A stretch of DNA of 37,373 nucleotides from Rhodanobacter sp. PCA2 (lineage in GTDB: Bacteria > Pseudomonadota > Gammaproteobacteria > Xanthomonadales > Rhodanobacteraceae): positions 42,650-80,022 of the forward strand of contig NZ_NJIC01000010.1 of NCBI RefSeq assembly GCF_013620825.1, written 5' to 3'. Position numbers and translations under genes: made by a program. Every line of letters starts with the position of its first letter. Positions within the stretch are counted from its first letter, which is position 1. Shown here piece by piece: positions 1,710-18,870 of the stretch. The notes below the pieces were generated by a model. The model was given only the letters and a program-made list of their open reading frames with translations, did no database searches and was not told the origin of the DNA.

Positions 1710-2786
1710 TCAACGGGCCAGCCGGCGCTCGAAGAAGTCGACCATGGCGGCGTACGCCTGCCGCGACTCCGGCAGCTCCGGGTCGGAGAAGAACGAGTGC
1801 CACATGCCCTCCCACACGCGCAGCTCGGTGGGCACGCCGGCCTGGCGGAGCAGCTCGTTGCTGTGCACCACCGAGCTCATGGCCATGTCGCGCGTGCCGG
1901 CGATCAGCAGGGTGGGTGGGAATTTCGCCAGCAGCGCGGGTGACACGCCCGGCTGCACCAGCGGGTCGTTCATGTCGGCGCCGAGGAAGTAGGGGATCAC
2001 GCGCAGGCCCAGCGGATGCGCGGGCACGCCCTGCCCGCCGAGCATGGGGGCGACGAAGGACGAGTCGCCGGCGAAGTCGGTCAGCCCGCCGCAGAACATG
2101 CCGATGGCGCCGGGCACCGGCAGCTTGTCGGTGATGAAGCGCGCCACCGCCTCGCCGGTGAGGACGCCGCCGGCCGAGCAGCCGTAGATGCCGATCTGCC
2201 CCGGCTTGTGGGTCTTCAGCAGCTCGCGGTAGACCTTCTCGACATCCTCGCTGGCGGCGGGGAAGACATTTTCCGGGCCCAGCCGGTAGTTGATGCCGAT
2301 CACCTCGATGCGGCCGAGGCTGGCGACGGGGATGGCCTCGACCAGGGCGCCGCTGTGCGAGCCCCACATGAAGGCGCCGCCATGCAGGTTGATCAGCACG
2401 CGGTGGCGGTTTGCCGGCGATACGCCCTGCGCCGGCGACACCACTTCGACGCTGACGCCGGCGATCGTGTCGCTGCGCGCCTTCACCGGGTAGAGCTTCT
2501 CCATGCGCGCGGCGCGGTCGCTGTTCATGCGGTCGTAGAAGGCGCGGCTGTCGGCGATGGGCGCCAGGAGCGACGGCGCCTTGGCGCCCTCCGCGAGCAT
2601 CTTCGGGAAGAACGCCCGCGCCTCCGGCGAAGCGAGCGCGGAGAACGGCACGCTGGCAGACGACGCGGTGACGGTGCCGTCGGCCTGCACGCCCGGCCGG
2701 ACGTCCTGGGCGCAGGCGCCGGTGGCGAACAGGCCGCCGCAGAGCAGCAACATCGGGATGAAGCGCGAAAGGCGTGGGCGGTTCAT
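1710..2786 (-). CDS. Secreted alpha/beta-hydrolase (acetyl-esterase/HSL-like)
   Basis: The 358-residue protein begins with a signal peptide (MNRPRLSRF then a hydrophobic core, probable cut after ACA), so it is predicted to be periplasmic. It carries the hallmarks of the hormone-sensitive-lipase/acetyl-esterase branch: an HGGAF oxyanion motif, nucleophile S204 in GCSAGG, probable acid D300 in GTRD and H330 in GMWHSFF. Substrate is not determined, but removal of acyl groups from a sugar would fit its place as the last gene of a carbohydrate locus, 62 bp after the GH37 gene. The ATG at 2786 was chosen because it directly precedes the signal peptide; the frame stays open further upstream into the GH37 gene, which is coincidental. 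It could also act on unrelated esters. Confidence 0.82.
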   Translation of the reverse strand: MNRPRLSRFIPMLLLCGGLFATGACAQDVRPGVQADGTVTASSASVPFSALASPEARAFFPKMLAEGAKAPSLLAPIADSRAFYDRMNSDRAARMEKLYPVKARSDTIAGVSVEVVSPAQGVSPANRHRVLINLHGGAFMWGSHSGALVEAIPVASLGRIEVIGINYRLGPENVFPAASEDVEKVYRELLKTHKPGQIGIYGCSAGGVLTGEAVARFITDKLPVPGAIGMFCGGLTDFAGDSSFVAPMLGGQGVPAHPLGLRVIPYFLGADMNDPLVQPGVSPALLAKFPPTLLIAGTRDMAMSSVVHSNELLRQAGVPTELRVWEGMWHSFFSDPELPESRQAYAAMVDFFERRLAR

Positions 2787-2848
2787 GGCGGTTCCTCGCT
2801 GGGTGCCGATGGGCGTGCTAGGGAGGCGATGCGCGTTGCCGATACGGA

Positions 2849-4513
2849 TCAGTGTAGCGGTGCAGGCCGGGCGGCGTCCTTTCCGGCCGTGCCGTCGAGC
2901 AACTGGCGAAGCTTCAGGTACACGCCGTTGGTCCAGCCGAAGCCGATGACGTTGGTGCTGTAGCCGGCGCTCACTTTCACGTCGGCGTTGCCGAGCGCCA
3001 TGTTGTATTTCTCGCGGATGGTGCCGTCTTCGGCGAGGCTGCGATCCACCGTGGCGGTGAACTTGCCGGCGAGGCGCCGCGCGTCGTCGTGGAAGCCGTA
3101 GGCGTCCAGCCCGGCGATGGCGAGCCAGTTGGTCGGCGCCCAGCCGAACGGGGCGTCCCACTGCACTTCGCTGGGGCGGTTGTCCATGCTCAGTCCGCCC
3201 GGCAGTTCGAACACGGCGAGCTGGTCGCGCACGGCCCGCGCCTGCGCCGGGGAGGCCGCGCCCGCCCACAGCGGATAGAAGGTGGTGAGGTAGGGCGCGT
3301 CCGAGGGCTTGCCGGCGACGAAGTCGTAGTCGCGGTACATGCCGGGCTTCGGCTGCCAGAGATATTTGTCCATCGCCGCCTTGCGCGCGGCGGCGGCCGC
3401 TTCCCAACGCTGTGCATCGGCGGTCCTGCCCAGTTGCCGGGCGAAGTCGCGCAGGTCCAGCTCGTAGCGGTAGAGCAGGCTGTTCAGGCCCACGCCGGCG
3501 TAGTGGTGGGTGGAGCCGCCGAACGGCCCGAAATGGAAGTTGGTGTCGAAACCGGATTCGCGCATGGCGCGGTCGCCGCGGTAGTAGTCGGCGGTGAGCC
3601 GGTAGCCGCCCACCCAGTTGCCGGCGCAGACCTTCGAGGCGCGCACGTCGCAGCTCGACGTCTTCAGGCGCGCGGCTTCGGCATCGTCCGGGTGTTCGGA
3701 CGCCTTCAGCAGGTAGCCGGGATCCTGCGCGGGATGCGCGATCAGCCACTGGATGACGCCGCGGTAGAACGAGCTGTCCTGCGCTTCCAGCACCGGGCCA
3801 TTGCCGAGGTCGTCGTAGCGGGCGAGCCCGGTGTCGCCAGCCCGGTGCTCGGGCCGCGTCCAGATTTCATAGTTGCGCACCGCCAGCGGATAGGCCTGCG
3901 CGAGCCATGCGTGCTTTTCGTCCGCGTTGGCGAAGCTCGCCGGATCGGCGAGCACGGCCGCCATCATCGCGCTCAGGAAGGGCGGCTGCGAGCGGCTGAG
4001 GTAGTAGGTGCGGTTGGCGTTGAGCACGCCGCCGTAGTGCTGCACCTCGAACAGCGCGTTGTCGGTCATGTCGCGCGCCAGTTCGGCGTGGCGGTCGGCA
4101 AGCAGGCCGAGCACGATGAAGTAGCTGTCCCAGCCGTACATCTCGTTGAAGAAGCCGCCCGGCACCACGTAGGGATGCGGCAGGTAGAGCAGGCCCTGCT
4201 CCGGCAGTTTCGTGGCATCCACCTCGCCGAGTTCGCGGATGACCTGCGGCAGCGGGCGCACTTCCACGTTGCAGCGTTTCGCCGTGCGTTGAAGGTCCGC
4301 GGGCACCGCGAATTGCGCGGGCACGTAGATCACCGGGCGGCCCTCGATCTTGGGGTCGGCCAGCGAGGCGCAGTTGTCCATCGAGCGTGTGAGGGTGCCC
4401 CACGCGTGGAGGATGTAGTCCAGCGTCTTCGCGGCATCGGGCGTGGCTGCGGAGGCGAGCGGTGCCGACAGCAGGGCCAGCACGAGGGCGGACAGGCGGA
4501 TGCGGATGTTCAT
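2849..4513 (-). CDS. Secreted GH37 trehalase-family glycosidase, divergent active site
   Basis: The 554-residue protein has a signal peptide (cleavage after ASA near residue 22), hence periplasmic. GH37 hallmarks are clear: PGGFFNEMYGWDSY (about 118-131), NRTYYLSRSQPP and QWDAPFGWAP. By alignment from memory with E. coli TreA, the catalytic acid corresponds to D323 (ESGFD) and the base to E501 (REKYN), so the machinery is intact. Two substrate-contact positions differ: the Arg of TreA PGGRF is F121 here, and the RPE triplet is replaced by a GPV/L segment after YDD. It may therefore cleave something other than trehalose, so no symbol is given. Its ATG overlaps the stop of the upstream GH65 gene (ATGA at 4510-4513), indicating translational coupling. 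Confidence 0.88.
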   Translation of the reverse strand: MNIRIRLSALVLALLSAPLASAATPDAAKTLDYILHAWGTLTRSMDNCASLADPKIEGRPVIYVPAQFAVPADLQRTAKRCNVEVRPLPQVIRELGEVDATKLPEQGLLYLPHPYVVPGGFFNEMYGWDSYFIVLGLLADRHAELARDMTDNALFEVQHYGGVLNANRTYYLSRSQPPFLSAMMAAVLADPASFANADEKHAWLAQAYPLAVRNYEIWTRPEHRAGDTGLARYDDLGNGPVLEAQDSSFYRGVIQWLIAHPAQDPGYLLKASEHPDDAEAARLKTSSCDVRASKVCAGNWVGGYRLTADYYRGDRAMRESGFDTNFHFGPFGGSTHHYAGVGLNSLLYRYELDLRDFARQLGRTADAQRWEAAAAARKAAMDKYLWQPKPGMYRDYDFVAGKPSDAPYLTTFYPLWAGAASPAQARAVRDQLAVFELPGGLSMDNRPSEVQWDAPFGWAPTNWLAIAGLDAYGFHDDARRLAGKFTATVDRSLAEDGTIREKYNMALGNADVKVSAGYSTNVIGFGWTNGVYLKLRQLLDGTAGKDAARPAPLH

Positions 4514-6777
4514 CGGTGCGGATTCCCGGTGGAGGGCAGGGCGGTCATCGACAGCACGGGCTTGCCGTCGGCATCGCGTCGCACGGCGATGTCGTAGTGC
4601 TGCCCGCGGAAAACGAGGTTGCGCAACGTCAGCGATTTCCAGTGCGCGGGCAGCATCGGCGGATAGGAAGGTAGCAAGCCCTGCGCTTCGATGCGCAGGC
4701 CGGTGAAACCGTAGAGGATGTTCTGCAGCATGCCGGCGCTGGCGGTGAGGAAGTAGCCGGTGTTGTTGTTCGCCGTTTCGGTGCGCACGTCGAATGGCGG
4801 CTTCACCACGTTCGCGCGGATGTTGCGCTCGAACCACATGGCGGCATCCGCGTGGTTGCCGGCGGTGGCGGCGGCGATCGACAGCGGCGCGAGGCCCATG
4901 CTGTTCGGATCGCGGCTCGAATGCTCGATCGGCCCCAGCGCGTAGGCGTAGTCGCGGCGGCGCACGTCCTCGCTCATCGGCAGGTCCAGCGCGGGCAGCG
5001 CGAGCATGGGCAGCGAGCTGCCGCCCCAGGTGTCGCGGTCGTGCGGCACCGACGGATCGAAGTCGAGATGGTGGCCGTCCTTGTCGGAGAACGGCAGGTA
5101 GAGGCCGTCCGCCACCTTGGCCCAGCGCGGATCGGGCTTTGCGCCCACCGCCGCTGCCGCCGCGGTGGCGATGTGCAGCGCCTTGCGCGCCACGGCGTTG
5201 GTGTAGGTGTCGTTCGGCACGTCGGCGTAGTCCTCGTCCACCGAGGTGACATGCTCGATCTCCCAGCGCTGCCTTGCCGCCACCCAGGTGGCGCGGCTGG
5301 CCCAGAAGTCGGCGACGGCGCGGATCACCGGCCAGCCGTGCTGCCGCAGCCAGGCCTTGTCGCCGCTGGCCAGCGAGTACTGCCACTGCGCGATGGCGAC
5401 GTCGCCGTTGACGTGGATCTCGTGCTCATCCAGCACCTGGGCCGAGTGCGGTGTCTGCGAACTGCCGTCGTCGGGATCGGCCTCCCACGGGTACATCGCG
5501 CCGTGCAGGCCGCGCGCTTGGGCGCGCGCCTCGGCGGCCGGCAGCGTGCGTGCGCGGAACGCCACCAGCGACTTCGCGCGCTCCGGGTGCAGCAGGAGCA
5601 GGGCGGGGAACACCCAGGTGTCGCTGTCCCAGAACACGTGACCCGCGTAACCCGGCGTCATGCCGCAGGCGCCGGCGCCCCAGGCGGTGCCGGGCGTGAC
5701 GTTGGAGAGCAGGTAGTAGAGGTCGGCGTGCACGATGCGCTGCGCGGCGGGGTCGCCGTCGATCACCACGTCGGATGTCCACAGCGCATGCCAGGCATCC
5801 TGGTGCGCGTGCAGCAGCGCGTCGAAGCCCTGCGTGCGCGCCTGTACGGCCAGCGCAAGATCGGCCTGCGCGTCGCCGCCCCAGCCTTCGCGCGAGACGG
5901 CGACGAACTTGGCGAAGCGGTAGGGATGGTTCTTCCGCACGTCCACCACCACGTTCAGCGCGAGTCGCAGGCCGTCGCGAACCACGCTCGCCGAGACCGG
6001 GTGCATGCCTTGCGGCAGCGACACGGCCACGGCTTCCGCCATCGCCGCGCTGCTCGCGGCGCGGCCGTCGAGCCACAGGGTGAGTAGTGCGGCATCGCCG
6101 TCGTGCGCCAGCACTTCGGTGGTGCCGGGATACCACAGCGCGGCGCGGTCCGGCGTGGCGGGTGCTACCGGTTCGAGTTTCAGGTGGTACTTGTCCAGTT
6201 CCCGGTGCATCTCCGCATCGGTGATGCGGGCCAGCGCGAAGCGCGGCTGGTGCGGCACCCAGGCGTCCAGCGCGAACGACAGTTCCACCCGGCCGTCGAA
6301 ATGCGGCGTGAGCGTGAGCCGACTGCCGGCGAGGTGCGGCGAGGCCTGGCTCACCAGCGAGAGCACCTCGACATCGGTGGCGCGTGCGCCATCGTGGTAG
6401 GTGTAACGCGTAGCCAGCGTGCCGTCGTGCATGTCCAGCGTCTGCGCGTAGCCCTGGAAGTGCGCGGCGTCCAGCGGCGCGGCGTTGAGCCAGGCGCCGC
6501 CGTCGGCGCGGTAATCGATGCCGCTCCACGCGGGCACGACCGCGGGGCGCGCCATGTCGCCGGGTGTGCGATCCATGAAGGCGGCGAGATAGGCCGGCGT
6601 GTTCTCGGTGCCGCGCGGCGCGGTCAGCGTGGAGGCGTAGCCGTTGCCGAGTTGTCCGGGAAAATAGCTGGCCCAGTCCGCGGCGCCGGCCTTGAGCACG
6701 AAACTGGGGTCGGTGGCGGCGAACGCAGGCGTGGCCGCCAGCGCGAGCAAGGCCGTGGCGACGAGAGCGCTTTTCAT
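4510..6777 (-). CDS. Secreted GH65 glycoside hydrolase (acid-trehalase/kojibiose-hydrolase-like)
   Basis: The 755-residue protein has a clean signal peptide (MKSALVATALLALAATPAFA, cut before ATDP), placing it in the periplasm. It has the GH65 layout: an N-terminal beta-sandwich, then an (alpha/alpha)6 barrel with FWDSDTWVFPALLL, HVNGDVAIAQWQY and the catalytic-acid segment VTSVDEDYADVPND (candidate E515). The HDSTLS phosphate-site motif found in the cytoplasmic paralogue of this window is here HSSRDPNSMG, and an acidic residue E667 (RTETANNN) lies where an inverting hydrolase would need a base. I infer a hydrolase rather than a phosphorylase, which also makes sense in a compartment without much phosphate sugar chemistry. 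Linkage specificity is unknown. Start and stop overlap both neighbours by ATGA. Confidence 0.85.
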   Translation of the reverse strand: MKSALVATALLALAATPAFAATDPSFVLKAGAADWASYFPGQLGNGYASTLTAPRGTENTPAYLAAFMDRTPGDMARPAVVPAWSGIDYRADGGAWLNAAPLDAAHFQGYAQTLDMHDGTLATRYTYHDGARATDVEVLSLVSQASPHLAGSRLTLTPHFDGRVELSFALDAWVPHQPRFALARITDAEMHRELDKYHLKLEPVAPATPDRAALWYPGTTEVLAHDGDAALLTLWLDGRAASSAAMAEAVAVSLPQGMHPVSASVVRDGLRLALNVVVDVRKNHPYRFAKFVAVSREGWGGDAQADLALAVQARTQGFDALLHAHQDAWHALWTSDVVIDGDPAAQRIVHADLYYLLSNVTPGTAWGAGACGMTPGYAGHVFWDSDTWVFPALLLLHPERAKSLVAFRARTLPAAEARAQARGLHGAMYPWEADPDDGSSQTPHSAQVLDEHEIHVNGDVAIAQWQYSLASGDKAWLRQHGWPVIRAVADFWASRATWVAARQRWEIEHVTSVDEDYADVPNDTYTNAVARKALHIATAAAAAVGAKPDPRWAKVADGLYLPFSDKDGHHLDFDPSVPHDRDTWGGSSLPMLALPALDLPMSEDVRRRDYAYALGPIEHSSRDPNSMGLAPLSIAAATAGNHADAAMWFERNIRANVVKPPFDVRTETANNNTGYFLTASAGMLQNILYGFTGLRIEAQGLLPSYPPMLPAHWKSLTLRNLVFRGQHYDIAVRRDADGKPVLSMTALPSTGNPHR

Positions 6778-8594
6778 GCGGGAACTCCCGGTACGGCGTC
6801 GAAGGCGATCGTGAGCCGCGCCTGTTCGCTGCGGAACGGCACGGTGCCGTGCCAGACGTAGGAAGGAAACAGCACCAGCAGACCGGGCTCGGGACGTACC
6901 GCGTGCTGCGCATGCAACGGCGGCGCCGTGGCGATGCCGGGCTCGCCGAACGCGAGGCAACCGTCCTGCGTGGATGCTGCCGCCATGCCGTCGGGCAGGT
7001 CCACGTAGAACGCCGAGGAGATCCAGCCGCGCGGGTGCACGTGGTTGGCATGGAAGCCTGCGTCGCGCAGCCGCACCGACCAGCTGCCGTTCCAGCGGTA
7101 GCTGCCGCGGTTGCGCCGGCGCAGCGGATCGACGCCGTGGCCGACATGCGCGAGGTAGTCGCGGATCGGCGCATCGAACGCCGCGAACAGCGCCCGTATC
7201 GCCGGGTCGGCGTGACGGGCCAGGTCGCCGGTGGTCTCGGTGCCGTGGCGCAGCGACTGGAACAGCAGCGGATGGCCGTGCGGATCGTGCAGGCGTTCCA
7301 GGCTGCGCTTCAGGTCGGAGAGGAAGCTGGCGAGGTCCGGCCAGCCATCCGGCGTGGGCAGGCGGTAGGGCTGCACCAGTTGCGCGTAATTGCAATACGC
7401 GTCGTGACGCGGGTCGCCCAGCAATCGCCAGGCAGTGGTCTGCAGCGCGATCAGGTACTGGTCGTCGGGCGCGTTGGCCAGCAGGCTTTCGCAATGTTCG
7501 AGGGCGCCGCGTGCATCGCCGGTGCCGAGCAGGGCTGCGGTGAGCAGGCTGCGTGCCGCCGTGCTGGCGGGCGACAGGCGCAGCGCGCGTTCCGCCAACT
7601 CGCGTGCGTTGGCGGGATCGAATGTCAGGGCGGAGAGTCCCGCGCGTACCAGCAGGGCTGGTGCCGCTTGCGCATGCGCGGTGGGCGCGGCGAGGCAGGC
7701 GTAGGCGCCGTGTGCATCGCCCGCGCCTTGCAGGATGGCGGCCTTCGCGGCGAGCAGGGCGGTATCGCCGGGGAAAGTCTGCAAGGCGGCATCGAGCGCG
7801 GCGGTGGTCTGCGCGGGATCGCCGGTACGCATCCATGTGAGCCGGGCGAGGTGGTCATGCGCGCCGGCGTTGCGCGGATCGAGTTGAAGGCCGTCGCGCA
7901 GCGCAGTTTCGGCGCGCGCGAACTCGCCCAGCGCGACCAGGCTGCGCGCACGGGTGAAACAGGTGGCCGCATCCGGCGTGCCCAGCGCGATCGCCTGTGC
8001 TGCCGCGCTTTCGGCCTCGGCATGCCGGCCGGTCGCGGCGAGCGCGATGGCCAGCGCATGCGCGGCGGACGGCTCGTTCGGGGCGGCTTCGGCCGCACGG
8101 CGCCAGAAGCCCACGGCTTCGTCGTGGCGGCCCAGCGCGACCAGCGCCGCCACATGTTGCGTCACCAGCGCGGCGTCGGGCTTGCTCGTCCGGCACAGCG
8201 GCGCCAGCAGCGCGAAGGCCTCGGCCGGGCGCTGGCTGTCGTTGCAGTGGCGCGCCAGCAGCAGGGCGGCCTGCGGCAGTTTCGCGGCCGCACGCCGCAG
8301 CAGCGGTTCGGCTTCGTCGGCGCGGCCGGCACTGAGCAGCAGTTCGCCCAGCGTGGCGAGCGTGGGCGCCCAGTTCGGGTCCAGCGCCAGCGCACGGCGC
8401 AGCAAGGCTTCCGCGCCGGCGGCGTCGCCGAAACCCAGGCGCAGGCCACCGAGCAGGCGGAGGGCCTCCACGCAGTCCGGATGCTCCACGACGATGGCCT
8501 GCAGCCGCCCGTGCGCGCCCCGCAGATCGCCGCCCTGCAGCAGCGCACCGACCTGGCGCAGGGCATCGAGCGGCATGGGCGCAGGGGCGGGCAC
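6774..8594 (-). CDS. TPR protein with C-terminal 2OG-Fe(II) oxygenase domain
   Basis: This is about 606 residues from a GTG at 8594, chosen because GGCGA lies 7 nt upstream; the ATG at 8576 (MPLDALRQ) is an alternative without a visible ribosome site, and starts further upstream would run into the MFS gene. Residues up to about 400 are TPR-like helical repeats rich in alanine (LRLLGGLRLGFGDAAGAEAL and similar). The C-terminal ~200 residues match the putative 2OG-Fe(II) oxygenase family: HVHPRGWISSAFYVDLP (proximal metal His), EPGLLVLFPSYVWHGTVPF (distal His) and ARLTIAFD (the Arg that usually holds 2-oxoglutarate). No signal peptide, so cytoplasmic. Its stop overlaps the next start (ATGA, 6774-6777), tying it firmly to the sugar operon. 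Its substrate is unknown. Confidence 0.8.
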   Translation of the reverse strand: MPAPAPMPLDALRQVGALLQGGDLRGAHGRLQAIVVEHPDCVEALRLLGGLRLGFGDAAGAEALLRRALALDPNWAPTLATLGELLLSAGRADEAEPLLRRAAAKLPQAALLLARHCNDSQRPAEAFALLAPLCRTSKPDAALVTQHVAALVALGRHDEAVGFWRRAAEAAPNEPSAAHALAIALAATGRHAEAESAAAQAIALGTPDAATCFTRARSLVALGEFARAETALRDGLQLDPRNAGAHDHLARLTWMRTGDPAQTTAALDAALQTFPGDTALLAAKAAILQGAGDAHGAYACLAAPTAHAQAAPALLVRAGLSALTFDPANARELAERALRLSPASTAARSLLTAALLGTGDARGALEHCESLLANAPDDQYLIALQTTAWRLLGDPRHDAYCNYAQLVQPYRLPTPDGWPDLASFLSDLKRSLERLHDPHGHPLLFQSLRHGTETTGDLARHADPAIRALFAAFDAPIRDYLAHVGHGVDPLRRRNRGSYRWNGSWSVRLRDAGFHANHVHPRGWISSAFYVDLPDGMAAASTQDGCLAFGEPGIATAPPLHAQHAVRPEPGLLVLFPSYVWHGTVPFRSEQARLTIAFDAVPGVPA

Positions 8595-8610
8595 GGTGAT
8601 GTCGCCGGCG

Positions 8611-9879
8611 CTATTTCGCCACGAGGCGGATGCCCGGCGTGGCCGCGGCCACGCCATGGCGATCGGTTTCGCGCTTGAAGAAGAACAGCGCGGCCAGGAT
8701 CAGGCACATCGGCAGCAGCGAGAAATAGAACGCGTCGATGCCGTTGGAGCGGGCGAACACGATGGCGGTGATGCGCGAGCCCAGCGTGCCGCCGAGCGCC
8801 GAGAAGATCACGATCAAACCCGTCATCGCCGCGTGCGAGGGCTTGGGCAGCGAGCTCAGCACCACCGAGTTGATCACCGGATAGATCGGCGCCATCAGCA
8901 GGCCCACCAGCGGGAACAGGTACGCCGCGACGGGCGCGTTGCGCCAGCCGGCCACGGCGCCCGGCGCGACGTCGCGGGCCAGCGGCAGGCTCAGCAGCAC
9001 GATCGCGGCCATGCCGACCACGCAGATGTTGAGCAAGGTGTACCAGTGCAGGCGCCGCAGCGCCTGTCCGGCGGCGAGGCGCCCCAGCGCGATCGCGCCG
9101 GGCAGGATGCTGGCGAGCTGGATGCTCATCGCGTTCGGCAGCTTGAGGATCTCGTTGTTGAAGGTCGGCAGCCAGGTCGAGAAGCTCTGCTCGATCAGCA
9201 CGTAGAGGAAGGCCGAGATCAGGAACACGTAGACCAGCGGCCGCACGAACAGCTGCAGCATCTCCACCAGCGAACCCTTCATGGTCGAGGTGTGCGCGTT
9301 GTGCGCCGCGGACTCGTCCATGCGCGAGCCGGCCAGCAGGACGATCGTCACGACGCACAGCGCGGCGAGCACCCAGTACACGTCGAGCCACGCCAGGTCG
9401 GCCGGTGCGGCGTGGTTGATGAAGGCGCTGAACAGCCAGTTGCCGACCAGCACGCCGAGCATGAAGGTGCCTTCGATCGTCGTGGTCAGGCGGCCATGCG
9501 CGGCGCGGTCGGCGGTGAGCAGGCCGATCGAGGAATACACGCCGACCTTGGCCAGCGCGAACGAGACGCCGACGCAGGTGAACAGCGCCTCGGTGGTGCG
9601 GAAGCTTGGCCACAGCGGCATCAGCACGCAGGCCGCGCCGAGCAGCGCCAGCGCCAGGATCATCGCGCGCCGGTAGCCGATCAGCGGCAGGAACGAGGCC
9701 ACGCCGAACGAGACCACGGCGATGGTGAGGTCCTTGAACAGTTCGAGCAGGCTGGCTTCGGTCTTGCCCACGCCGAAGCTGGCGATGGACTGCAGTATCA
9801 CCGTGCCCACGCTGTTGAGCAGGATCGCGAAGACCACGTAGGTCAGCGCGAGCGCGGCGATCATGCGGAAACGATTCAT
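8611..9879 (-). CDS. MFS sugar transporter
   Basis: The 422-residue inner-membrane protein has about 12 hydrophobic segments from residue 5 on, and major-facilitator features such as a charged loop after TM2 (GYRRAM) and a long cytoplasmic loop near the middle (residues about 185-210, DESAAHNAHTST). Its company suggests sugar:proton symport, delivering the products of the periplasmic glycosidases or an intact disaccharide. The ATG at 9879 is preceded by GAGGTG five to six nt upstream, which decides it over a start 23 codons earlier. A hairpin separates it from the receptor gene upstream. It resembles the fucose/glucose/galactose-type permeases seen beside TonB receptors in xanthomonads, but the substrate cannot be read from the sequence. 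Confidence 0.85.
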   Translation of the reverse strand: MNRFRMIAALALTYVVFAILLNSVGTVILQSIASFGVGKTEASLLELFKDLTIAVVSFGVASFLPLIGYRRAMILALALLGAACVLMPLWPSFRTTEALFTCVGVSFALAKVGVYSSIGLLTADRAAHGRLTTTIEGTFMLGVLVGNWLFSAFINHAAPADLAWLDVYWVLAALCVVTIVLLAGSRMDESAAHNAHTSTMKGSLVEMLQLFVRPLVYVFLISAFLYVLIEQSFSTWLPTFNNEILKLPNAMSIQLASILPGAIALGRLAAGQALRRLHWYTLLNICVVGMAAIVLLSLPLARDVAPGAVAGWRNAPVAAYLFPLVGLLMAPIYPVINSVVLSSLPKPSHAAMTGLIVIFSALGGTLGSRITAIVFARSNGIDAFYFSLLPMCLILAALFFFKRETDRHGVAAATPGIRLVAK

Positions 9880-9910
9880 GCGCACCTCGGCCGTGGTCCA
9901 CGTCGAAAAC

Positions 9911-9946
9911 GGCGGCCCGGACCGCCATCGCACGATCCGGGCCGCC
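9911..9946 (-). terminator. Intra-operon hairpin, possible attenuating terminator
   Basis: GGCGGCCCGGA (9911-9921) and TCCGGGCCGCC (9936-9946) are perfect 11-bp complements with a 14-nt loop. On the minus strand the hairpin is followed by GTTTTC, a short T-run. It sits 22 bp after the receptor stop and before the MFS gene. It could be a partial terminator or an mRNA-stabilising barrier that sets a high receptor to low transporter ratio. Confidence 0.5.
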
Positions 9947-9967
9947 ACGCGGGGGAATGTTGCCTCG

Positions 9968-12538
9968 TCAGAACTGGTACTTCACCTGGAAGCTGTACTG
10001 GTGGCCTTCCAGCGCGCGCGCCAGCAGCACGCCCGACGAGCCGGTGGCATTGCCCGCGATGCGCGAGTTCGACTCCGTCAGGCCCAGCGTGTCGGTCACG
10101 TTGGAGCCCAGCAGGGTGAACACCCAGCGCTTGTCGTAGGTGTACTGCGCGCCCACGTTGAAGTCGGTGTAGCTGCCCAGTTGCTGCAGGGCCAACTGGT
10201 CCTGGGTGTGCGCCCCCACGTATTCCATGGTCACCCACAGGCGCAGGTCGCCATGGGCCGTGGGCAGGGTCAGGGTCGGCGTCAGGCGCACCTGGAACTT
10301 CGGCTGGCGCTGCAGCTGCATGCCCTGGTAGGTGCCCACGAATTCGCCGGTGGGATTGCCTGGCGTGGGCAGGCCGTAGAACACCGCGTTGCCCTTGAAG
10401 TGCGAGTAGTGGCCGTCCATCCAGTCGCCGGAGGCGATCATCGAGAACATCTTGTCCGGCGTGGTGGCGATCAGGTTGAAGTTGATGCCCCGGGTATCCG
10501 AGCCGTAGGTGGACTTGCTGCCGAACGGCACGCCGAGCAGGGAGGGCTGGTAGCTCAGGCCGTTGAACTGGCGGTGGTAGAACGAGACGTCGGCGTTCAG
10601 CCAGTTCGCCTGGTACTTCCAGCCCACCTCGAAGTTCTGCACCTTGAGCAGCGGCGGCGTGTCGCCGGTGACGCTGCCGCGCATGTCGTCGAAGCTGTTG
10701 AAGTGCGCGCCCTTGTTGGCGCGGGCGTAGACGGACATGTTGTCCATGATCTTGTAGGTGGCGCCGACCGTCCACGAAGTGTGGGTCTTGTCGTAGTTGG
10801 TGCGCGCGTACGTGCCGTTGCACATCGAGACGGCGTTGTTGTACAGCGTGTTCGGGTTGCCGTCGAGGTCGACGTTGGACAGGTTGCAGACGGTGTTGTG
10901 CGCGTCCTCGTTCTCCACGCGGACCGAGGCGTCGAGGATCCACTTGTCGAGGTTCCACATGTCGGACAGGTAGAGCGCCTTGTTGGTGGCGACGCCGTTC
11001 TCGGTGATGTTGTAGCCGCCGTTGTAGATCAGGCCCTGGCCGTTGGTGACCTGGTAGGTCTGGCCGCCCTGCACGTAGCTCACCGCGATCGGGATCGCGT
11101 TCGGCGTGTTGGTCATCAGCATCGGGTTGCCGAGCGACCAGCGGTCGTTGTCGGTGTAGTGCGCGAGGTACAGGCCGGCGGTCAGCGTGTTGCCCTCGAA
11201 CAGTTCCTTGCTGAGGCGGAAGTCGTTGATCACGCTCTTCAGGTTCTTGTGGATGTGCCACAGGCCCTGGCTGATCACGTCCAGGTTCGGGTTGGTGATC
11301 ACGCCCGCGCCGTTGGCGTAGCTGGCGGTGTACACGGCGCCGGCGGGAACGGCGTTGCCGGGATAGGTTCCGGCGGTGTTTTCCCAGGCGCTGAGCGACT
11401 GGGGATTCGCGCCGGAGAACAGCGCGTTGGTGTCCATGTTGCCGCCGTTGACCAGGAACTTGTCGCTCACCGTCCAGCCGTTGCCGAAGTCCCAGTCGAA
11501 GTTCGCGCCGAGGAAGCCGAGTTGCGCGCCGCGGCCGTCTGCTAGGTCGACGCTGGTGCCGCCGCCCGGATAGCTTTCCAGGTAGGTGTGCTGCATGGCG
11601 CGGCTGTAGTAGGTGCTGGTCAGCGGGTCGAAGCCCGGATAGGCGGAGAAGATGCCGGGGCGGTCCTGGATCATCGGCACCGGCGTGATGAACTGGTTCT
11701 TGTCGTCCAGGCCGCGGGCCCAGAACACCAGCGAGCCGTTGTCCCAGTCCTTGGTCAGCGTGGCGGTGAGCTGGCCGCCCTTGTCGGACGGATACTGCGG
11801 CTTGCGCACGCCGTCGGAGACGCGGTAGAAGCCGCCCACGCTGCCGTACCAGCCGTTCTTGCCGATCGGGAAGCCGTAGAAGCCGTCGACGCGGCGCAGG
11901 TTGCCGGTGCCGTAGGTGACGCCGATGCTGCCGGACGGCGTGTCGGTGCCCTGCTTCAGGATGTAGTTGGAGGTGAGGCCGATCTGGCCGTCGCCGAACA
12001 CCACCGATGGGCCGCCCAGCAGCAGTTCCACGTGGTCGATGGTGTCGTCGAGGCGGAACATCGAGCTCTGCTCGAAGAACGACAGCGAGGGCATGCCGTA
12101 CAGCGGCGTGCCCATGATCTGGTTGGTGTAGAACGGGGCGTCGCCGCCGCCCGGGAAGCCGGCGATCTCGATGTTCGCGCCGGTCTCGCCGCCGGTGGAC
12201 TCGGGCCATACGCCCGGCGCGAGCTTCAGCAGGTCGGCGGAGCTGCGCGGGTTGGCCTGCTGGATCTGCGCCGAGGTGGCGGTGGTGATCGAATAGCTGG
12301 CGTCGACCTTGCGCACGCCGGTGGTGCTGGCCGAACCGGTGACGACGACCTGTTCCAGCGACTGCACGGACTTGCCGTTTTTCGACTTGCCGTCCGGGCT
12401 CTGCCCGGTGGCGGGGGCGGCCGGCGTGGTGGCCTGGGACTGGGCCTGTCCGTTGTCCTGGGCCTGGGCGTTGCCGGAGGCGAGGGCCGCCGCGATCGCC
12501 GCGGACAGGGTCAAGCTTGTGAGTAGCCGAGTGCTCAT
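9968..12538 (-). CDS. TonB-dependent receptor of the sugar locus
   Basis: The 856-residue outer-membrane protein starts with a signal peptide (MSTRLLTSLTLSAAIAAALA..., cut after AQA). A low-complexity Gln/Ala/Pro/Ser stretch follows, then a TonB-box-like EQVVVTGSAS near residues 60-70. A plug domain comes next (QQANPRSSADLLKLAPGV..., DHVELLLGGPSVVFGDG). The remaining ~650 residues are a beta-barrel with alternating Trp/Tyr-rich strands and a terminal Phe (FQVKYQF), the usual signal for BAM insertion. There is no N-terminal anti-sigma-interacting domain, so control is probably by the adjacent LacI repressor. The start follows GGGGAG by 7 nt and lies 14 bp after the GH65 fusion gene, so the two are co-transcribed. 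It is expected to import an alpha-glucoside too large or too dilute for porins. Confidence 0.92.
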   Translation of the reverse strand: MSTRLLTSLTLSAAIAAALASGNAQAQDNGQAQSQATTPAAPATGQSPDGKSKNGKSVQSLEQVVVTGSASTTGVRKVDASYSITTATSAQIQQANPRSSADLLKLAPGVWPESTGGETGANIEIAGFPGGGDAPFYTNQIMGTPLYGMPSLSFFEQSSMFRLDDTIDHVELLLGGPSVVFGDGQIGLTSNYILKQGTDTPSGSIGVTYGTGNLRRVDGFYGFPIGKNGWYGSVGGFYRVSDGVRKPQYPSDKGGQLTATLTKDWDNGSLVFWARGLDDKNQFITPVPMIQDRPGIFSAYPGFDPLTSTYYSRAMQHTYLESYPGGGTSVDLADGRGAQLGFLGANFDWDFGNGWTVSDKFLVNGGNMDTNALFSGANPQSLSAWENTAGTYPGNAVPAGAVYTASYANGAGVITNPNLDVISQGLWHIHKNLKSVINDFRLSKELFEGNTLTAGLYLAHYTDNDRWSLGNPMLMTNTPNAIPIAVSYVQGGQTYQVTNGQGLIYNGGYNITENGVATNKALYLSDMWNLDKWILDASVRVENEDAHNTVCNLSNVDLDGNPNTLYNNAVSMCNGTYARTNYDKTHTSWTVGATYKIMDNMSVYARANKGAHFNSFDDMRGSVTGDTPPLLKVQNFEVGWKYQANWLNADVSFYHRQFNGLSYQPSLLGVPFGSKSTYGSDTRGINFNLIATTPDKMFSMIASGDWMDGHYSHFKGNAVFYGLPTPGNPTGEFVGTYQGMQLQRQPKFQVRLTPTLTLPTAHGDLRLWVTMEYVGAHTQDQLALQQLGSYTDFNVGAQYTYDKRWVFTLLGSNVTDTLGLTESNSRIAGNATGSSGVLLARALEGHQYSFQVKYQF

Positions 12539-12552
12539 GTTCTGACTCCCCG

Positions 12553-15500
12553 TCAGGTCTGGTTGCTGGGTGATGCGGCGGCGGCGGGATGCCGGGCCGA
12601 TGGGCCGCTTGTCGTTGTGATCCGGCCGATGTCGAACGCGGCGATGTTCGACAAGAGCACGTCGGCGTCGGCCAGGGCTTCCGCCCGGCCTATGCCTATC
12701 GCCGCCATCCCCGCGGCATGAATGCTGGCGATGCCTGCCGCGGCGTCCTCCACGCCGAGGCATTCCGCCGGCGCCAGACCGAGACCGGCGGCGGCGGCGA
12801 GAAAGATTTCCGGGTCGGGCTTGGAGCGCGCGATGCGGCTGGCGTCGACCACGTAGTCGAACAGCCCGGCGATGCCCAGCCGCTCGATCAGCTGCGGCGC
12901 GTTGCGGCTGGCCGAGGCCAGCGCGGTCTTCAGCCCCGCGCGGCGCACCGATTCCACCGCGGCGCGCGCGCCCGGCAGCAGGTGCTGCGGGTCCAGGCGG
13001 TCGATCAGCTCGACGTAGCGGGCGTTCTTGCGCGCGGCCAGTTCGGCCTTTTCCGCGTCGTCGTAGCGGCGCGGCGCGCGTTCCAGCAGGATCTCCAGCG
13101 AGCCCATGCGGTCCACGCCCTTCATGCGCTCGGCGATCGCCTCGTCGAACGGCGCGTCGATTTCGGCGGCGAGCTGCTGCCAGGCCGCGCGATGCAGCAC
13201 GGCGGTGTCGGCGAGCACGCCGTCGAGGTCGAAGATCACGCCTTTCGGCGCACAGGTGGCTGTCGCCGGATGGGCGAACTGCAGCGACTCGCCCGTGCGC
13301 ACATGCTGCGGCTGGCCGCGATGCAGGAAGTCCAGCGCCTCGCCATCCACCAGCGTATAGCGCACGCCGTCGGCATCCACTTCCACGCGCAGCTGCGCAT
13401 CGCGCCAGCGCAGGCCGAAGCGATAGCCCTGCCAGGCGTGGGGCAGCTGCGGCGCCAGCGCGGGGCGGCCGCCGGTCACGCGCAGGCCGCCGAAGCCCCA
13501 GACCAGCGCCAGCCAGCTGCCGGCCATGCCGGCCATGTGCAGGCCGTGCCCGGCGTTGCCGTGCGAGTCGTCCAGGTCCATCCGCAAGGTGTCGAGGAAA
13601 TACCGGTACGCCTGCGCCCCGCGGCCCACCTCGGCGGCGACTACCGCGAAGGTGGAGGCGGACAGCGTGGAGTCGTGCACGGTGACGCCTTCGTAGTAGT
13701 CGAAGTTGCGTCGCTTGGCGGCGACGTCCACGTCATCGCCGGCCAGCATCAGCGCCAGCAGGGTATCGGCCTGCTTGCACACCTGGTGGCGGTAGATCGT
13801 GAGCGGGTGCCAGTGCAGCAGCAGCGGGCGCAGCGCGGGGTCGTGCAATTGCGCGGGCGCGAGCCGCGGCTTGTCGAGGAAGCCGTCGTCCTGCGGGAAG
13901 ACGCCCAGCTCCGCGTCCACCGGCAGGTACATCGCGTCGGCGGCGCGCCGCCATCGGGCGGCTTCGTCCGCGGCCAGGTCGATGCGCTGCGCCAGCGCGG
14001 CATGCTTGGCCGGGTGCGTCGCGGCCAGCCACTCGACGGTGGCGGCGGCGTCGCGCAGGTGCCGCTGCGCCATGCGGTTGGTGTAGTGGTTGTTGTCGAC
14101 CAGGGCGGAGTATTCGTCCGGCCCGGTCACCTCGTGGATGCAGAACGCGCCGCCGCGGCGCGGGTTGCAGTGGCCGAGGTCCAGCCAGATGCGCGCGGTT
14201 TCGCACAGCATCTCCGCGCCCATGTCGCGCAGGAACGCCTCGTCGCCGCTGGCGTCCACGTACAGGCGGATCGCCCAGGCGATGTCGGCGTTGATGTGGT
14301 ACTGCGCCGAGCCGCCGGGGTAGTAGGCCGAGCATTCGTCGCCGGCGATGGTGCGCCAGGGATACAGCGCGCCGCGCGCATGGTTCAGCTCGCGGGCGTG
14401 GGCGCGGGCGCGGTCCAGCGTGGCATGGCGCCAGGCCAGCATGTGCCGTGCGAGCCGCGGCGCCGCGGTGGCCAGCACCGGCAGCATGAAGGCTTCGGCA
14501 TCCCAGAAATAATGGCCTTCGTAGCCTTCGCCGGTGAGGCCCTTGGCGGCCACGCTGCCGCCGTCGTCGCGGCTGGCGGACTGGAACAGCTGGAACAGGT
14601 TGAAGCGCAGCGCCTGCTCCGTGTCCGGCGCACCGTCGATGGCGAGGTCGGCCGCGCGCCACAACGCGTCGAGTTGTCCCGCCTGGCCGGCCAGCAGGGA
14701 GGGGAATCCTGCGTGGCCGGCCGATTCCAGTGCTTCCGCGGCACTGGACAGCAGGACAGGGTCGACGCTTGCCGCAGCGCCGGGCGTGGACCAGGCCCAG
14801 GCCGCGAATTTCTCCAGGGTCACCTCGCCGCCGGGAACCAGCGTGCCGGCGTAGGTCTGCACCACGCCGCGCAGCGTGCGGGTGGCGCCGTGAAAGCCCA
14901 GTGCAGGATCGGGCAGCGCATGCATCTGCGCGCAGACCAGCCGGATGCCGCTGTGCGTGGTGTGCTGGCTCACCCAGGCGAGCGCTGCGGTGGCGCGGGC
15001 GTCGTGCAACTGCAGGCCGCCGCTGAGGTGGGCGCCGATGCGCGGGTCGTCGCCCTGCGCGGCGGCCGTGCGCACGGTGTCTATCATCGAGTCCAGCGCG
15101 ATCGGGCCGCTGTAGTCGATCGAGCGGACGCAGTAGCGGATCGCCAGCACGCCGGGTCGGTCCAGCGGCACCAGCCGTTCGGCGACGATCTCCAGCGTGC
15201 CGCCGCGCGGCGCGCGCCAGCGCAGCGTGCGGCGGTAGCAGCCGGTGCGCAGGTCCAGCCGGCGATCCAGCGCCAGCCACTCGCCTTCGTCCAGGTGCAC
15301 GGGGACGTCGTCCAGCCGCAGCCGGATGCGGCTGGCATCGGCCACCGGCACGCGGGTGTCGGTATGGCTGGCGAAACCGGTGAAGCGCTCGTGGTAGGCG
15401 ATCGGCGAGCGTTCCCACACGCCGGCCAGGAAACAGCCCTGGCTGGGGCTTTCGTCCTCTTCCAGGCCGCCGCGTACGCCCAGCGAGCCGTTCGCGAGCG

Positions 15501-15642
15501 CGAACAGGCTTTCGTCCTGGGCGAAGCCGGCGCGGTCGTGGCCATGGCGGACGAGCTGCCAGGGATCGGCCCCGGTGGTGGCGTGCGCCGTCGTGCCCGC
15601 ATCGGCGGGCAGGGCAGTCGCGGCCGCATCATGAGTCCGCAC
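12553..15642 (-). CDS. GH65 disaccharide phosphorylase fused to beta-phosphoglucomutase
   Basis: This is a 1029-residue, two-enzyme polypeptide without a signal peptide, so cytoplasmic. Residues about 25-790 are a GH65 phosphorylase: HYFWDAEAFMLPVL, AQYHINADIAWAI, general acid E510 in VTGPDEYSALVDNN, and the phosphate-binding HDSTLSASTFA (from H656). Residues about 800-1010 are a HAD-superfamily beta-phosphoglucomutase: nucleophile D805 and acid/base D807 in IFDLDGVLADT, then ASASRNAP and SKPDPEIF motifs. Together they would turn a glucose disaccharide plus phosphate into glucose and glucose-6-phosphate. The disaccharide (maltose, trehalose, kojibiose or nigerose) is not determined. Start: GTG at 15642, with GAGGGG 9 nt upstream; longer frames reaching 15735 start upstream of the predicted transcript and are unlikely. 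Confidence 0.9.
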   Translation of the reverse strand: MRTHDAAATALPADAGTTAHATTGADPWQLVRHGHDRAGFAQDESLFALANGSLGVRGGLEEDESPSQGCFLAGVWERSPIAYHERFTGFASHTDTRVPVADASRIRLRLDDVPVHLDEGEWLALDRRLDLRTGCYRRTLRWRAPRGGTLEIVAERLVPLDRPGVLAIRYCVRSIDYSGPIALDSMIDTVRTAAAQGDDPRIGAHLSGGLQLHDARATAALAWVSQHTTHSGIRLVCAQMHALPDPALGFHGATRTLRGVVQTYAGTLVPGGEVTLEKFAAWAWSTPGAAASVDPVLLSSAAEALESAGHAGFPSLLAGQAGQLDALWRAADLAIDGAPDTEQALRFNLFQLFQSASRDDGGSVAAKGLTGEGYEGHYFWDAEAFMLPVLATAAPRLARHMLAWRHATLDRARAHARELNHARGALYPWRTIAGDECSAYYPGGSAQYHINADIAWAIRLYVDASGDEAFLRDMGAEMLCETARIWLDLGHCNPRRGGAFCIHEVTGPDEYSALVDNNHYTNRMAQRHLRDAAATVEWLAATHPAKHAALAQRIDLAADEAARWRRAADAMYLPVDAELGVFPQDDGFLDKPRLAPAQLHDPALRPLLLHWHPLTIYRHQVCKQADTLLALMLAGDDVDVAAKRRNFDYYEGVTVHDSTLSASTFAVVAAEVGRGAQAYRYFLDTLRMDLDDSHGNAGHGLHMAGMAGSWLALVWGFGGLRVTGGRPALAPQLPHAWQGYRFGLRWRDAQLRVEVDADGVRYTLVDGEALDFLHRGQPQHVRTGESLQFAHPATATCAPKGVIFDLDGVLADTAVLHRAAWQQLAAEIDAPFDEAIAERMKGVDRMGSLEILLERAPRRYDDAEKAELAARKNARYVELIDRLDPQHLLPGARAAVESVRRAGLKTALASASRNAPQLIERLGIAGLFDYVVDASRIARSKPDPEIFLAAAAGLGLAPAECLGVEDAAAGIASIHAAGMAAIGIGRAEALADADVLLSNIAAFDIGRITTTSGPSARHPAAAASPSNQT

Positions 15643-15651
15643 GTGATGAAT

Positions 15652-15657
15652 CCCCTC
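15652..15657 (-). promoter_or_regulatory. Ribosome binding site deciding the GTG start
   Basis: GAGGGG on the minus strand lies 9 nt before the GTG at 15642. No comparable site precedes the in-frame ATGs at 15687 or 15735, and the latter lies inside the operator, upstream of the predicted transcription start. Confidence 0.6.
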
Positions 15658-15706
15658 GCATGGTCGCAAAGGGCGCCGAAGCGACATCGACACCCGTTCG
15701 GTGGCG

Positions 15707-15735
15707 AGCATACGGGCGAATGATATCGATATCAA
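15707..15735 (-). promoter_or_regulatory. Sigma-70 promoter of the sugar operon
   Basis: On the minus strand TTGATA (15730-15735, five of six consensus bases) is followed after exactly 17 bp by TATGCT (15707-15712, four of six). Transcription would start near 15700, leaving a leader of about 58 nt to the GTG. The -35 box lies inside the twin operator, so a bound repressor would exclude RNA polymerase. Confidence 0.65.
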
Positions 15736-15750
15736 GATATCGATATCATT
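15719..15750. promoter_or_regulatory. Twin LacI-type operator, perfect 15-bp inverted repeat
   Basis: AATGATATCGATATC (15719-15733) and GATATCGATATCATT (15736-15750) are exact complements around AA. Each half contains its own CG-centred palindrome (TGATATCGATATCA at 15721-15734; near-identical AGATATCGATATCA at 15735-15748), with centres 14 bp apart. CG-centred even palindromes are the usual target of LacI-family repressors, and the gene for one starts 134 bp away. It is strikingly AT-rich against its GC-rich surroundings. The remaining spacer (15751-15883) shows no convincing promoter for lacI. Confidence 0.8.
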
Positions 15751-15883
15751 ACATTTGAAACGGCTTTGGACGGCCTCTGGGCCGGTGATGATGCATTGAA
15801 CATGCTGCGTTCGCGGGCGACACTAGCCCCCGCTTGAGGAGGGCGCTTGCGCCCGCGTCCATCGCCGCCCGGAGGGCCGTCCC

Positions 15884-16894
15884 GTGAGTCCTGCCAAGAA
15901 GAAGCAGCCCGTCGCGGCCCAGGCCGGCCTGACCATGGCGGACCTGGCGAAGCTGGCGGGGGTGTCCAAGATCACTGTGTCGCGGGCGCTGGGCGACAGT
16001 CCGCTGGTGACGCCGGAAACCCGCGAGCGCATCCAGGCGCTGGCGCGCAAGCACGGCTACAAGCTCAACGTCAGCGCCCGCAACCTCCGTCTCCGGCGTA
16101 GCCACACGGTGGCGGTGATCGTGGAGATGAAGCCCTCGTCCAGCCGCACCATGTGGGATCCCTACCCGCTGTCCCTGCTGGGCGGCATCACGCAGGAACT
16201 GACCTCGGCCGGCTACAGCGTGCTGCTGACCACCCGCCACGACGCGGCGAACGCCGCGGTGCAGGCCGCCGACGGGCTGATCCTGCTGGGCCAGGGCGTG
16301 CACCAGGACGCGGTGAAGCTGTACGACCGCATGGGCCTGCCGATGGTGGTGTGGGGCGCCGAGTCCGACCACGACAACCACATCGTGGTGGGCAGCGACA
16401 ACCGCCAGAGCGGGGTGAGCGTGGCCGAGCGCTTCCTCTCGATCGGACGGCGCCACCCGGTGTTCATCGGCAACTCCGACCACCCGGAAATGGCCCAGCG
16501 CCTGCACGGCTTCGTGGACGAGTTGGCCGGCCACGGCATCAAGCCGCTGCTGCTGCAGCGGGTGGACTGGACGCTGGAGTCCGGCGTGGCCGCGGTGCAC
16601 TCGCTGGCCAGCCGCAAGGTGCATTTCGACGCGATCTTCGCCTGCAGCGACCTGCTGGCGATGGGCGCGATCCGGGCGCTGGTGGAGCTGGGCCTGTCGG
16701 TGCCGAACGACGTATCGGTGGTGGGTTACGACGACACGCCGCACGGCGTCAGCTTCCTGCCGCCGCTGTCCACCGTGCGGCAGAACTGGCAGGAGGGCGG
16801 CGTGCTGCTGGCGCGCAAGGTGCTGGCGCTGATCGACGGCCAGCCGGTGGCCTCGCAGATGCTGCCGACCAGCCTGATCGTGCGCGCGACCTGA
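15884..16894 (+). CDS. LacI-family transcriptional repressor of the sugar locus
   Basis: The 336-residue protein starts at a GTG 7 nt after GGAGGG. The helix-turn-helix covers about residues 16-40 (MADLAKLAGVSKITVSRAL), and the hinge helix SARNLR holds the Leu that in this family wedges into the central CpG of the operator, matching the CG-centred palindromes upstream. Residues about 75-336 are a periplasmic-binding-protein-like effector domain (VAVIVEMKP, FIGNSDHPEMAQRL, DAIFACSDLLAMGAIRAL, VSVVGYDDTPHG), so the inducer is probably a sugar or sugar phosphate. It is divergent from the GH65 operon and the natural candidate to bind the twin operator and repress it. Its stop lies only 9 bp from the convergent pilS stop, giving a very tight right border of the inserted locus. 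Confidence 0.9.
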   Translation: MSPAKKKQPVAAQAGLTMADLAKLAGVSKITVSRALGDSPLVTPETRERIQALARKHGYKLNVSARNLRLRRSHTVAVIVEMKPSSSRTMWDPYPLSLLGGITQELTSAGYSVLLTTRHDAANAAVQAADGLILLGQGVHQDAVKLYDRMGLPMVVWGAESDHDNHIVVGSDNRQSGVSVAERFLSIGRRHPVFIGNSDHPEMAQRLHGFVDELAGHGIKPLLLQRVDWTLESGVAAVHSLASRKVHFDAIFACSDLLAMGAIRALVELGLSVPNDVSVVGYDDTPHGVSFLPPLSTVRQNWQEGGVLLARKVLALIDGQPVASQMLPTSLIVRAT

Positions 16895-18547: not shown

Positions 18548-18580
18548 GATGTGCGGCACTCCGGAGCGATCCCGGCGGAG

Positions 18581-18586
18581 TTTATA
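18581..18586 (-). promoter_or_regulatory. Possible -10 box for pilS
   Basis: TATAAA on the minus strand lies about 34 bp before the GTG start, in otherwise GC-rich DNA. No good -35 hexamer is visible at 16-18 bp, so the call is weak. Confidence 0.3.
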
Positions 18587-18685
18587 GGCGGGTTGCAGTT
18601 TCGTGAACCTTGGGACCCGCCGCCGGGCCGCGGGCGCGGCGTCCGGACGCCCCCGGCCGGGCCCGTGTCGGCGCCGGAATATGCG

Positions 18686-18709
18686 GCGCCCCTTTCCATC
18701 AGGGGGCGC
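18686..18709. other. Hairpin in the sucC upstream region
   Basis: GCGCCCCT (18686-18693) and AGGGGGCGC (18701-18709) pair with one bulge around TTCCATC. It lies in the 323-bp divergent spacer between pilS and sucC (18548-18870), which is otherwise very GC-rich and shows no convincing sucC promoter by eye. A leader structure or REP-like element are both possible. Confidence 0.3.
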
Positions 18710-18870
18710 TTCCGCGAAAATGGGCGGCCGTTTCGCGCGGTTCCTGCCTCGTCGGGGCACCGCCGCGCACTCCGCAAGCCGGCAGCGTCCGCGCCGTCCG
18801 ACTCCCCGCAAGCCCGCGCCGCGTTCCATCTGCGCGAGCCCGTGTTTCCCCGTTCGCTCGAGGCTATCGA

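Follow-up and report, generated by a model that had tools for sequence, protein, structure and literature searches.

The window analyzed here, a stretch of 37,373 nucleotides from Rhodanobacter sp. PCA2 (contig NZ_NJIC01000010.1, positions 42,650 to 80,022), contains between positions 1710 and 16894 a conserved locus for sugar uptake and degradation, and we consider it fairly likely that this locus serves trehalose and decorated trehalose, with trehalose as the core substrate. Four observations lead to this assignment: the trehalose phosphorylase motif of a cytoplasmic glycoside hydrolase family 65 (GH65) enzyme fused to a β-phosphoglucomutase (β-PGM), the presence of a GH37 enzyme, a distribution among relatives in which one of GH37 and the fusion may be absent while the other is retained, and an operator shared with related loci that lack the secreted GH65. 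A preliminary description of this DNA had proposed a single coordinated system for a mixed or branched alpha-glucan rather than for plain trehalose. The coordinated system stands, since gene order and co-occurrence are conserved in relatives, but the same four observations point to a trehalose core instead of an alpha-glucan. Carbohydrate utilization loci with a TonB-dependent receptor (CUT loci) are defined by a TonB receptor gene located beside genes for carbohydrate-degrading enzymes, an inner-membrane transporter and a sugar regulator (PMC1790865). The gene content of the locus corresponds to the definition given there, and it is almost certainly a sugar locus of the CUT type.

Gene content and organization of the locus

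The locus consists of a divergent LacI gene and seven co-directional genes on the minus strand, which run from 15642 down to 1710 in the order GH65-β-PGM fusion, TonB receptor, major facilitator superfamily (MFS) permease, tetratricopeptide repeat (TPR)-2-oxoglutarate (2OG) oxygenase, secreted GH65, GH37 and esterase:

15884-16894, plus strand: LacI-family repressor, divergent from the operon (PF00356/PF13377)
15719-15750, no strand: predicted twin LacI operator, perfect palindrome of 32 bp
12553-15642, minus strand: cytoplasmic GH65 phosphorylase fused to β-phosphoglucomutase, by motif a putative trehalose phosphorylase (PF03632, 382.9 bits; TIGR01990)
9968-12538, minus strand: TonB-dependent outer-membrane receptor (PF00593, PF07715)
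8611-9879, minus strand: MFS permease (PF07690, MFS_1)
6774-8594, minus strand: cytoplasmic TPR and 2OG-Fe(II) oxygenase-like protein (PF13759, 2OG-FeII_Oxy_5; TPR families)
4510-6777, minus strand: secreted GH65 hydrolase of B type (GH65 match, 150.8 bits)
2849-4513, minus strand: secreted GH37 enzyme, trehalase family (Pfam Trehalase, 312.9 bits)
1710-2786, minus strand: carboxylesterase, secreted or lipid-anchored, of the hormone-sensitive-lipase type with GCSAG (Abhydrolase_3; NF058650, 488 bits, cut-off 410)

Every gene named in the preliminary description was recovered by Pfam and NCBIfam scans, including its three secreted hydrolases, of which one is a carboxylesterase and no glycosidase. 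The two ATGA overlaps, from which it had derived a coupling of the genes, are exact at 4510-4513 and 6774-6777, and with the chosen start codons the remaining gaps are short (fusion-receptor 14 bp, receptor-MFS 88 bp, MFS-TPR 16 bp, GH37-esterase 62 bp). The fusion starts with GTG preceded by GAGGGG, and the start codon of the TPR-oxygenase is uncertain, as a longer open reading frame (ORF) reaches 8657. N-termini resembling signal peptides were recognized by eye for the esterase, GH37, the secreted GH65 and the receptor, and none for the fusion or the TPR protein. Family searches of the whole genome returned one GH37 gene and two GH65 genes, all of them within the locus, and no other GH37 or third GH65 gene.

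The fusion protein and GH37 point to trehalose

The fusion was compared in 53 distinct sequences, with positions given in CsKP numbering. Its β-PGM domain scores 229.6 bits with TIGR01990 (cut-off 189.4) and has retained in 53/53 sequences both aspartates of the DxD motif, which we take to be the nucleophile motif. The phosphorylase domain carries, again in 53/53, the acid Glu, the phosphate-site Lys (AKGL) and His (LHMA), the first phosphate-site Ser, and the Trp-Asp and Lys-Gln of subsite -1. R392, I394 and P585 are equally invariant in the alignment with CsKP (53/53), and so is P416, which was aligned manually across a gap. The motif of a verified trehalose phosphorylase is TRIGPP at CsKP positions 64, 392, 394, 402, 416 and 585, and the other GH65 specificities are described by EEAPxx (kojibiose), KV[MF]NES (maltose), FAITQA (oligonigerose) and DQGQDE (trehalose-6-phosphate), respectively (PMC8537180). 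On the basis of this motif, the fusion is likely to be a trehalose phosphorylase. It shares R392, I394, P585, the hand-placed P416 and the phosphate-site Lys, His and first Ser with the GH65 trehalose phosphorylases described as subgroup 1 in PMC8537180, whereas it differs from them in being joined to a β-PGM, in position 402, which is mostly A, and in the second phosphate-site Ser, which is mostly Thr. Kojibiose phosphorylase was considered as a name for the fusion and rejected, as it requires E392/A394 and all 53 sequences have R/I. The motif also bears on the idea that a mixed or branched alpha-glucan oligomer is hydrolyzed outside and phosphorolyzed inside the cell in parallel. Several families active on alpha-glucosides are indeed found together in one operon, but the fusion motif differs from those of the maltose, kojibiose and oligonigerose phosphorylases (MP, KP and oligoNP), and no family typical for alpha-1,4 or alpha-1,6 linkages, such as GH13 or GH31, is among the Pfam matches of the locus, so that such an oligomer is a highly improbable substrate.

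In GH37, D323 and E501 are invariant in 16/16 sequences, and by comparison with TreA they are presumably the catalytic acid Asp and base Glu, respectively. Furthermore, in two loci of relatives (L074 and L108) distant GH65 proteins are encoded beside a different GH37, which is only 31-34% identical to that of the window and accounts for two of the 16 sequences. This second, separate pairing hints that GH65 and GH37 act in sequence.

The predicted LacI operator is shared with loci lacking the secreted GH65

The predicted operator at 15719-15750 is formed by two GATATCGATATC boxes flanking TT and overlaps a sigma-70-like promoter at 15735-15707 (minus strand, 9 of 12). Its 22-base core was found with at most three mismatches in 43/44 LacI-fusion intergenic regions, locus L130 with six mismatches being the exception, and the best matches in shuffled controls (20 per region) had 8-11 mismatches. 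Among the relatives there are loci with the core LacI-fusion-receptor-MFS and no secreted GH65, consisting of this core (L130, L133, L134), of the core plus the esterase (L128, L129) or of the core plus GH37 and the esterase (L132). L128, L129, L132 and L133 have the same operator, and in L130 half of it is present. As the operator is common to loci with and without the secreted GH65, LacI probably senses the same sugar in the latter. In the genome of 3.9 Mb the exact box is found three times, twice at the locus and once inside an ORF, for which reason a regulon beyond the operon was set aside; this applies to exact boxes, as mismatched boxes were not searched.

Conservation and distribution

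A scan of named genomes, covering the best 80 of 150 relatives and 77 distinct loci, revealed relatives of the locus in Rhodanobacter, Dyella, Frateuria, Fulvimonas, Rudaea, metagenome-assembled genomes titled Gammaproteobacteria and others. Among 147 genomes of the family, long matches to the secreted GH65 are found in 71, to the GH37 ortholog in 66 and to the fusion in 66. All 71 genomes with the secreted GH65 also have GH37, the fusion or both (41 both, 17 only GH37, 13 only the fusion), which corresponds to GH37 in 58/71 and the fusion in 54/71. The fusion adjoins GH65 in 52/54 genomes; of the two exceptions, the locus of G061 is cut at contig ends and the assembly of G142 is fragmented. 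GH65 and GH37 are adjacent in 48/58 genomes, and 29/71 genomes have GH65 in at least two places. In wider sets of genomes the secreted GH65 was not seen outside the family: its profile matched 23 of 250 genomes in a sample of the order (23/23 belonging to the own family) and 2 of 398 in a sample of the phylum, both of them again from the own family.

Across 41 loci spanning from the fusion to pilR (window included), MFS is present in 41, the receptor in 38, the esterase in 37, GH37 in 29, the TPR-oxygenase in 20 and a sulfatase in five. The secreted GH65 occurs in two types, A and B, each of which is present in 31 of these loci, with both in 21. The relative gene order is kept throughout with the exception of five loci of one sublineage (L061, L073, L076, L078, L079), in which the fusion, together with the receptor where seen, lies beyond LacI, in the direction of LacI and away from MFS and the hydrolases. 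Because gene order is conserved in the 41 loci, five with the fusion moved, the locus is no chance gathering of genes. After removal of eight duplicate contigs, fusion and MFS occur jointly in 47 distinct GH65-bearing loci, of which 30 have GH37 and 17 do not. Both are absent from 18 loci, GH37 being present in 13 of these and missing in five, and one further locus is truncated at its edge. Apart from locus L131, MFS thus accompanies the fusion, as expected if MFS imports the sugar that is phosphorolyzed by the fusion.

A sulfatase gene lies beside MFS in the operon of seven of the 77 named loci (L053, L061, L068, L075, L083, L086, L098) and of L033, and in the three relatives scanned the sulfatase was identified as PF00884. 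Its presence in these operons is hinting at a sulfated substrate. Distant GH65 relatives were also tried as a clue to the substrate, and chosen neighbors in L074, L080, L100, L108, L110, L115 and L121 (GH31, melibiase-like, GH92, halogenase, Gfo/Idh/MocA) gave no single answer. In L074, the neighborhood of the GH65 relative comprises GH37 and GH31, an enzyme resembling melibiase, a protein resembling tryptophan halogenase and a sugar transporter.

The secreted GH65 and a possible decoration of trehalose

The nearest solved structures to the secreted GH65 by sequence are the kojibiose hydrolase FjGH65A and then human PGGHG, both alpha-1,2 enzymes. The AlphaFold model (predicted local distance difference test, pLDDT, 79.0; predicted template modeling score, pTM, 0.83) likewise matches FjGH65A first by fold, followed by maltose and kojibiose phosphorylases and then PGGHG. 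The acid E515 and base E667, corresponding to E472 and E616 of FjGH65A, are invariant in 21/21 sequences, and the same holds for W431/E432, which correspond to W391/E392 of the +1 site. In FjGH65A, W391/E392 are tied to the recognition of kojibiose (PMC8626586). Relatives encode A and B types, of which the strain of the window keeps only B. All nine A-type rows show TWMGSS and DEAY, and 8/11 B-type rows show [TS]WGGSS and DEDY; L026, L027 and L036 depart from this signature, and L039 is intermediate between A and B. In Rhodanobacter sp. DHG33 (G106; L148, G106:C22:26000-29000), what is left of GH65 A is truncated and ends in a stop; it lies between the sulfatase and TPR-oxygenase genes, and a GH65 A copy is thus undergoing loss.

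Several findings weigh against the assignment to trehalose and decorated trehalose. In the fusion, position 64 of the TRIGPP motif has no placement in the alignment, the hand-placed position 402 is A in 43, S in eight and G in two of the 53 sequences, and the second phosphate-site Ser is replaced by Thr in 52/53; because of this Thr, our confidence that the fusion acts on trehalose was lowered slightly, from a somewhat higher level to the one expressed above. GH37 reaches 220 bits with the TreA equivalog PRK13272, the cut-off of which is 941. In the secreted GH65, T407 of the FjGH65A +1 site aligns to L449, Lys538-Gln539 of subsite -1 are missing in 21/21 sequences (aligned stretch, query 556-620), and the kojibiose hydrolase model NF053734 gives 346 bits with a cut-off of 800. 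Concerning distribution, GH65 and GH37 lie apart in 10/58 genomes, and genome G035, which is outside the 71, has a distant GH65 match (33% identity, 177.6 bits) and neither GH37 nor the fusion. Moreover, five loci of uncultured Gammaproteobacteria (L100, L110, L115, L118, L121) contain GH65 without the fusion, MFS or GH37 nearby, and in L131 the fusion stands alone between pilS and pilR, with no receptor or MFS. Finally, all conservation counts are derived from related genomes and do not represent independent events.

Since L449 replaces T407, Lys538-Gln539 are absent and the score is below the kojibiose hydrolase cut-off, the glycone of the secreted GH65 may differ from plain glucose. The alignment around the -1 loop is uncertain, and the lysine of the A type (HDKITW) could be nearby in space. 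Kojibiose hydrolase was rejected as a firm name for this enzyme, which deviates in two features of the subsites and scores below the curated cut-off. The -1 residues are described as completely conserved in FjGH65A, in the acid trehalases of fungi and in PGGHGs (PMC8626586). It is conceivable, although doubtful, that the secreted GH65 acts on glucosylated or otherwise substituted trehalose. With the same reserve, GH65 A and B might form a new clade with a new specificity for a substituted or non-glucose terminal sugar, which would free trehalose from glucosylated, acylated or sulfated forms that soil fungi, plants or bacteria produce, and the locus might then be the first described system that feeds on decorated trehalose.

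Two other substrates have to be considered here. The locus could degrade glucans with alpha-1,2 linkages or oligosaccharides that contain kojibiose, such as branched dextran, with GH37 and the fusion cleaning up side products. The closeness of the secreted GH65 to FjGH65A and the retained W391/E392 speak for this. However, no GH31, GH66 or GH97 match is found at the locus of the window, the fusion does not carry the kojibiose phosphorylase motif EEAPxx, the secreted GH65 has neither T407 nor the -1 Lys-Gln, and GH37 or the fusion accompanies GH65 in all 71 counted genomes of the family (G035 being outside the count), which makes alpha-1,2-glucans an improbable substrate. Only slightly less improbable is that the locus serves plain trehalose alone, with its secreted GH65 as the bacterial equivalent of the GH65 acid trehalases of fungi, so that three routes would lead from one sugar. 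All remaining enzymes fit trehalose, and the secreted GH65 is dispensable in core loci having the same operator. Its best sequence matches are nevertheless the alpha-1,2 enzymes FjGH65A and PGGHG, the W/E pair of the +1 site is kept, the -1 residues retained by acid trehalases (PMC8626586) are missing, and with GH37 alongside, a pair of divergent GH65 enzymes would mean a high degree of redundancy.

Proposed pathway

For trehalose and decorated trehalose as substrates, judged from the protein families, the receptor would carry the sugar across the outer membrane. In the periplasm, the secreted GH65 might cut off a sugar in alpha linkage, probably glucosyl attached by a 1,2 bond, and acyl groups would be stripped by the esterase, leaving trehalose; in some relatives the sulfatase may additionally strip sulfate. 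GH37 would split some of the trehalose to glucose and MFS would import the remainder. As suggested by its conserved catalytic and motif residues, the fusion would then phosphorolyze imported trehalose to glucose and β-glucose-1-phosphate and isomerize the latter to glucose-6-phosphate. At the level of the enzyme families this supports the path to glucose-6-phosphate that was put forward in the preliminary description, with glucose as a further end product. From the conservation of the predicted twin operator, LacI is expected to keep the operon off.

Comparison with known systems

The locus resembles sux, the CUT locus for sucrose in Xanthomonas campestris, in joining a TonB receptor and an inner-membrane transporter with a sugar enzyme and a sugar regulator, whereas sux comprises four genes for sucrose and the locus described here has the phosphorylase-mutase fusion and three secreted hydrolases (PMC1790865). 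Trehalose is not mentioned in the main text on the sux locus (PMC1790865). With the branched-dextran locus FjDexUL of Flavobacterium johnsoniae it shares a secreted inverting GH65 with the same acid and base and W391/E392 (PMC8626586, PMC10316084). In contrast to FjDexUL, it has no dextranase, but GH37, the phosphorylase fusion and the esterase instead, and is of the proteobacterial CUT type (PMC8626586, PMC10316084); T407 and the -1 Lys-Gln of FjGH65A are not conserved (PMC8626586). The view of the preliminary description that the gene set is not a described system agrees with the open-licence literature, in which, among the matches listed and judged by titles and abstract openings except for the papers cited, neither a trehalose CUT locus nor this gene set was found. 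No bacterial route for glucosyl-trehaloses appeared among the matches listed there by title or abstract opening, and a search for selaginose together with trehalose had no match in the open-licence literature. If the assignment is true, a trehalose-type substrate would join the sugar classes of proteobacterial CUT loci, and a Gram-negative trehalose phosphorylase-mutase fusion would be tied to a dedicated uptake route. In the survey of trehalose-degrading enzymes made for a 2023 review, GH65 is reported exclusively for Gram-positive bacteria (PMC10969515). Furthermore, there would be a GH65 hydrolase clade having a sugar-binding subsite unlike that of the GH65 hydrolases compared in PMC8626586.

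The TPR-oxygenase and the genomic setting

The TPR-oxygenase (6774-8594) is the only PF13759 protein of the genome. Its AlphaFold model (pLDDT 86.8) has TPR domains as best fold matches, and AspH, which combines TPR and oxygenase, appears first at rank 28 as a weak match with a query-normalized TM of 0.22-0.26. According to this model, the protein could hydroxylate a protein.

The sugar locus of approximately 15 kb sits between pilS and pilR:

16904-18829, minus strand: PilS-like histidine kinase (PF25323 6TM_PilS, PF00512, PF02518)
223-1623, minus strand: PilR-like sigma-54 response regulator

Ten locus-free genomes were used for comparison, eight of them family members without a GH65, GH37 or fusion match and two from another family of the order, and nine had both pil genes. 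No mobility gene was found among the window genes scanned. In 7/9, including G022 of the same genus, pilR and pilS are adjacent with 82-368 bases between the matches, and in 2/9 (G004, G026) they are separated. Outside the locus, the minus strand of the window carries a second TonB receptor gene at 30089-32581, next to which a ClpB-like gene is found.

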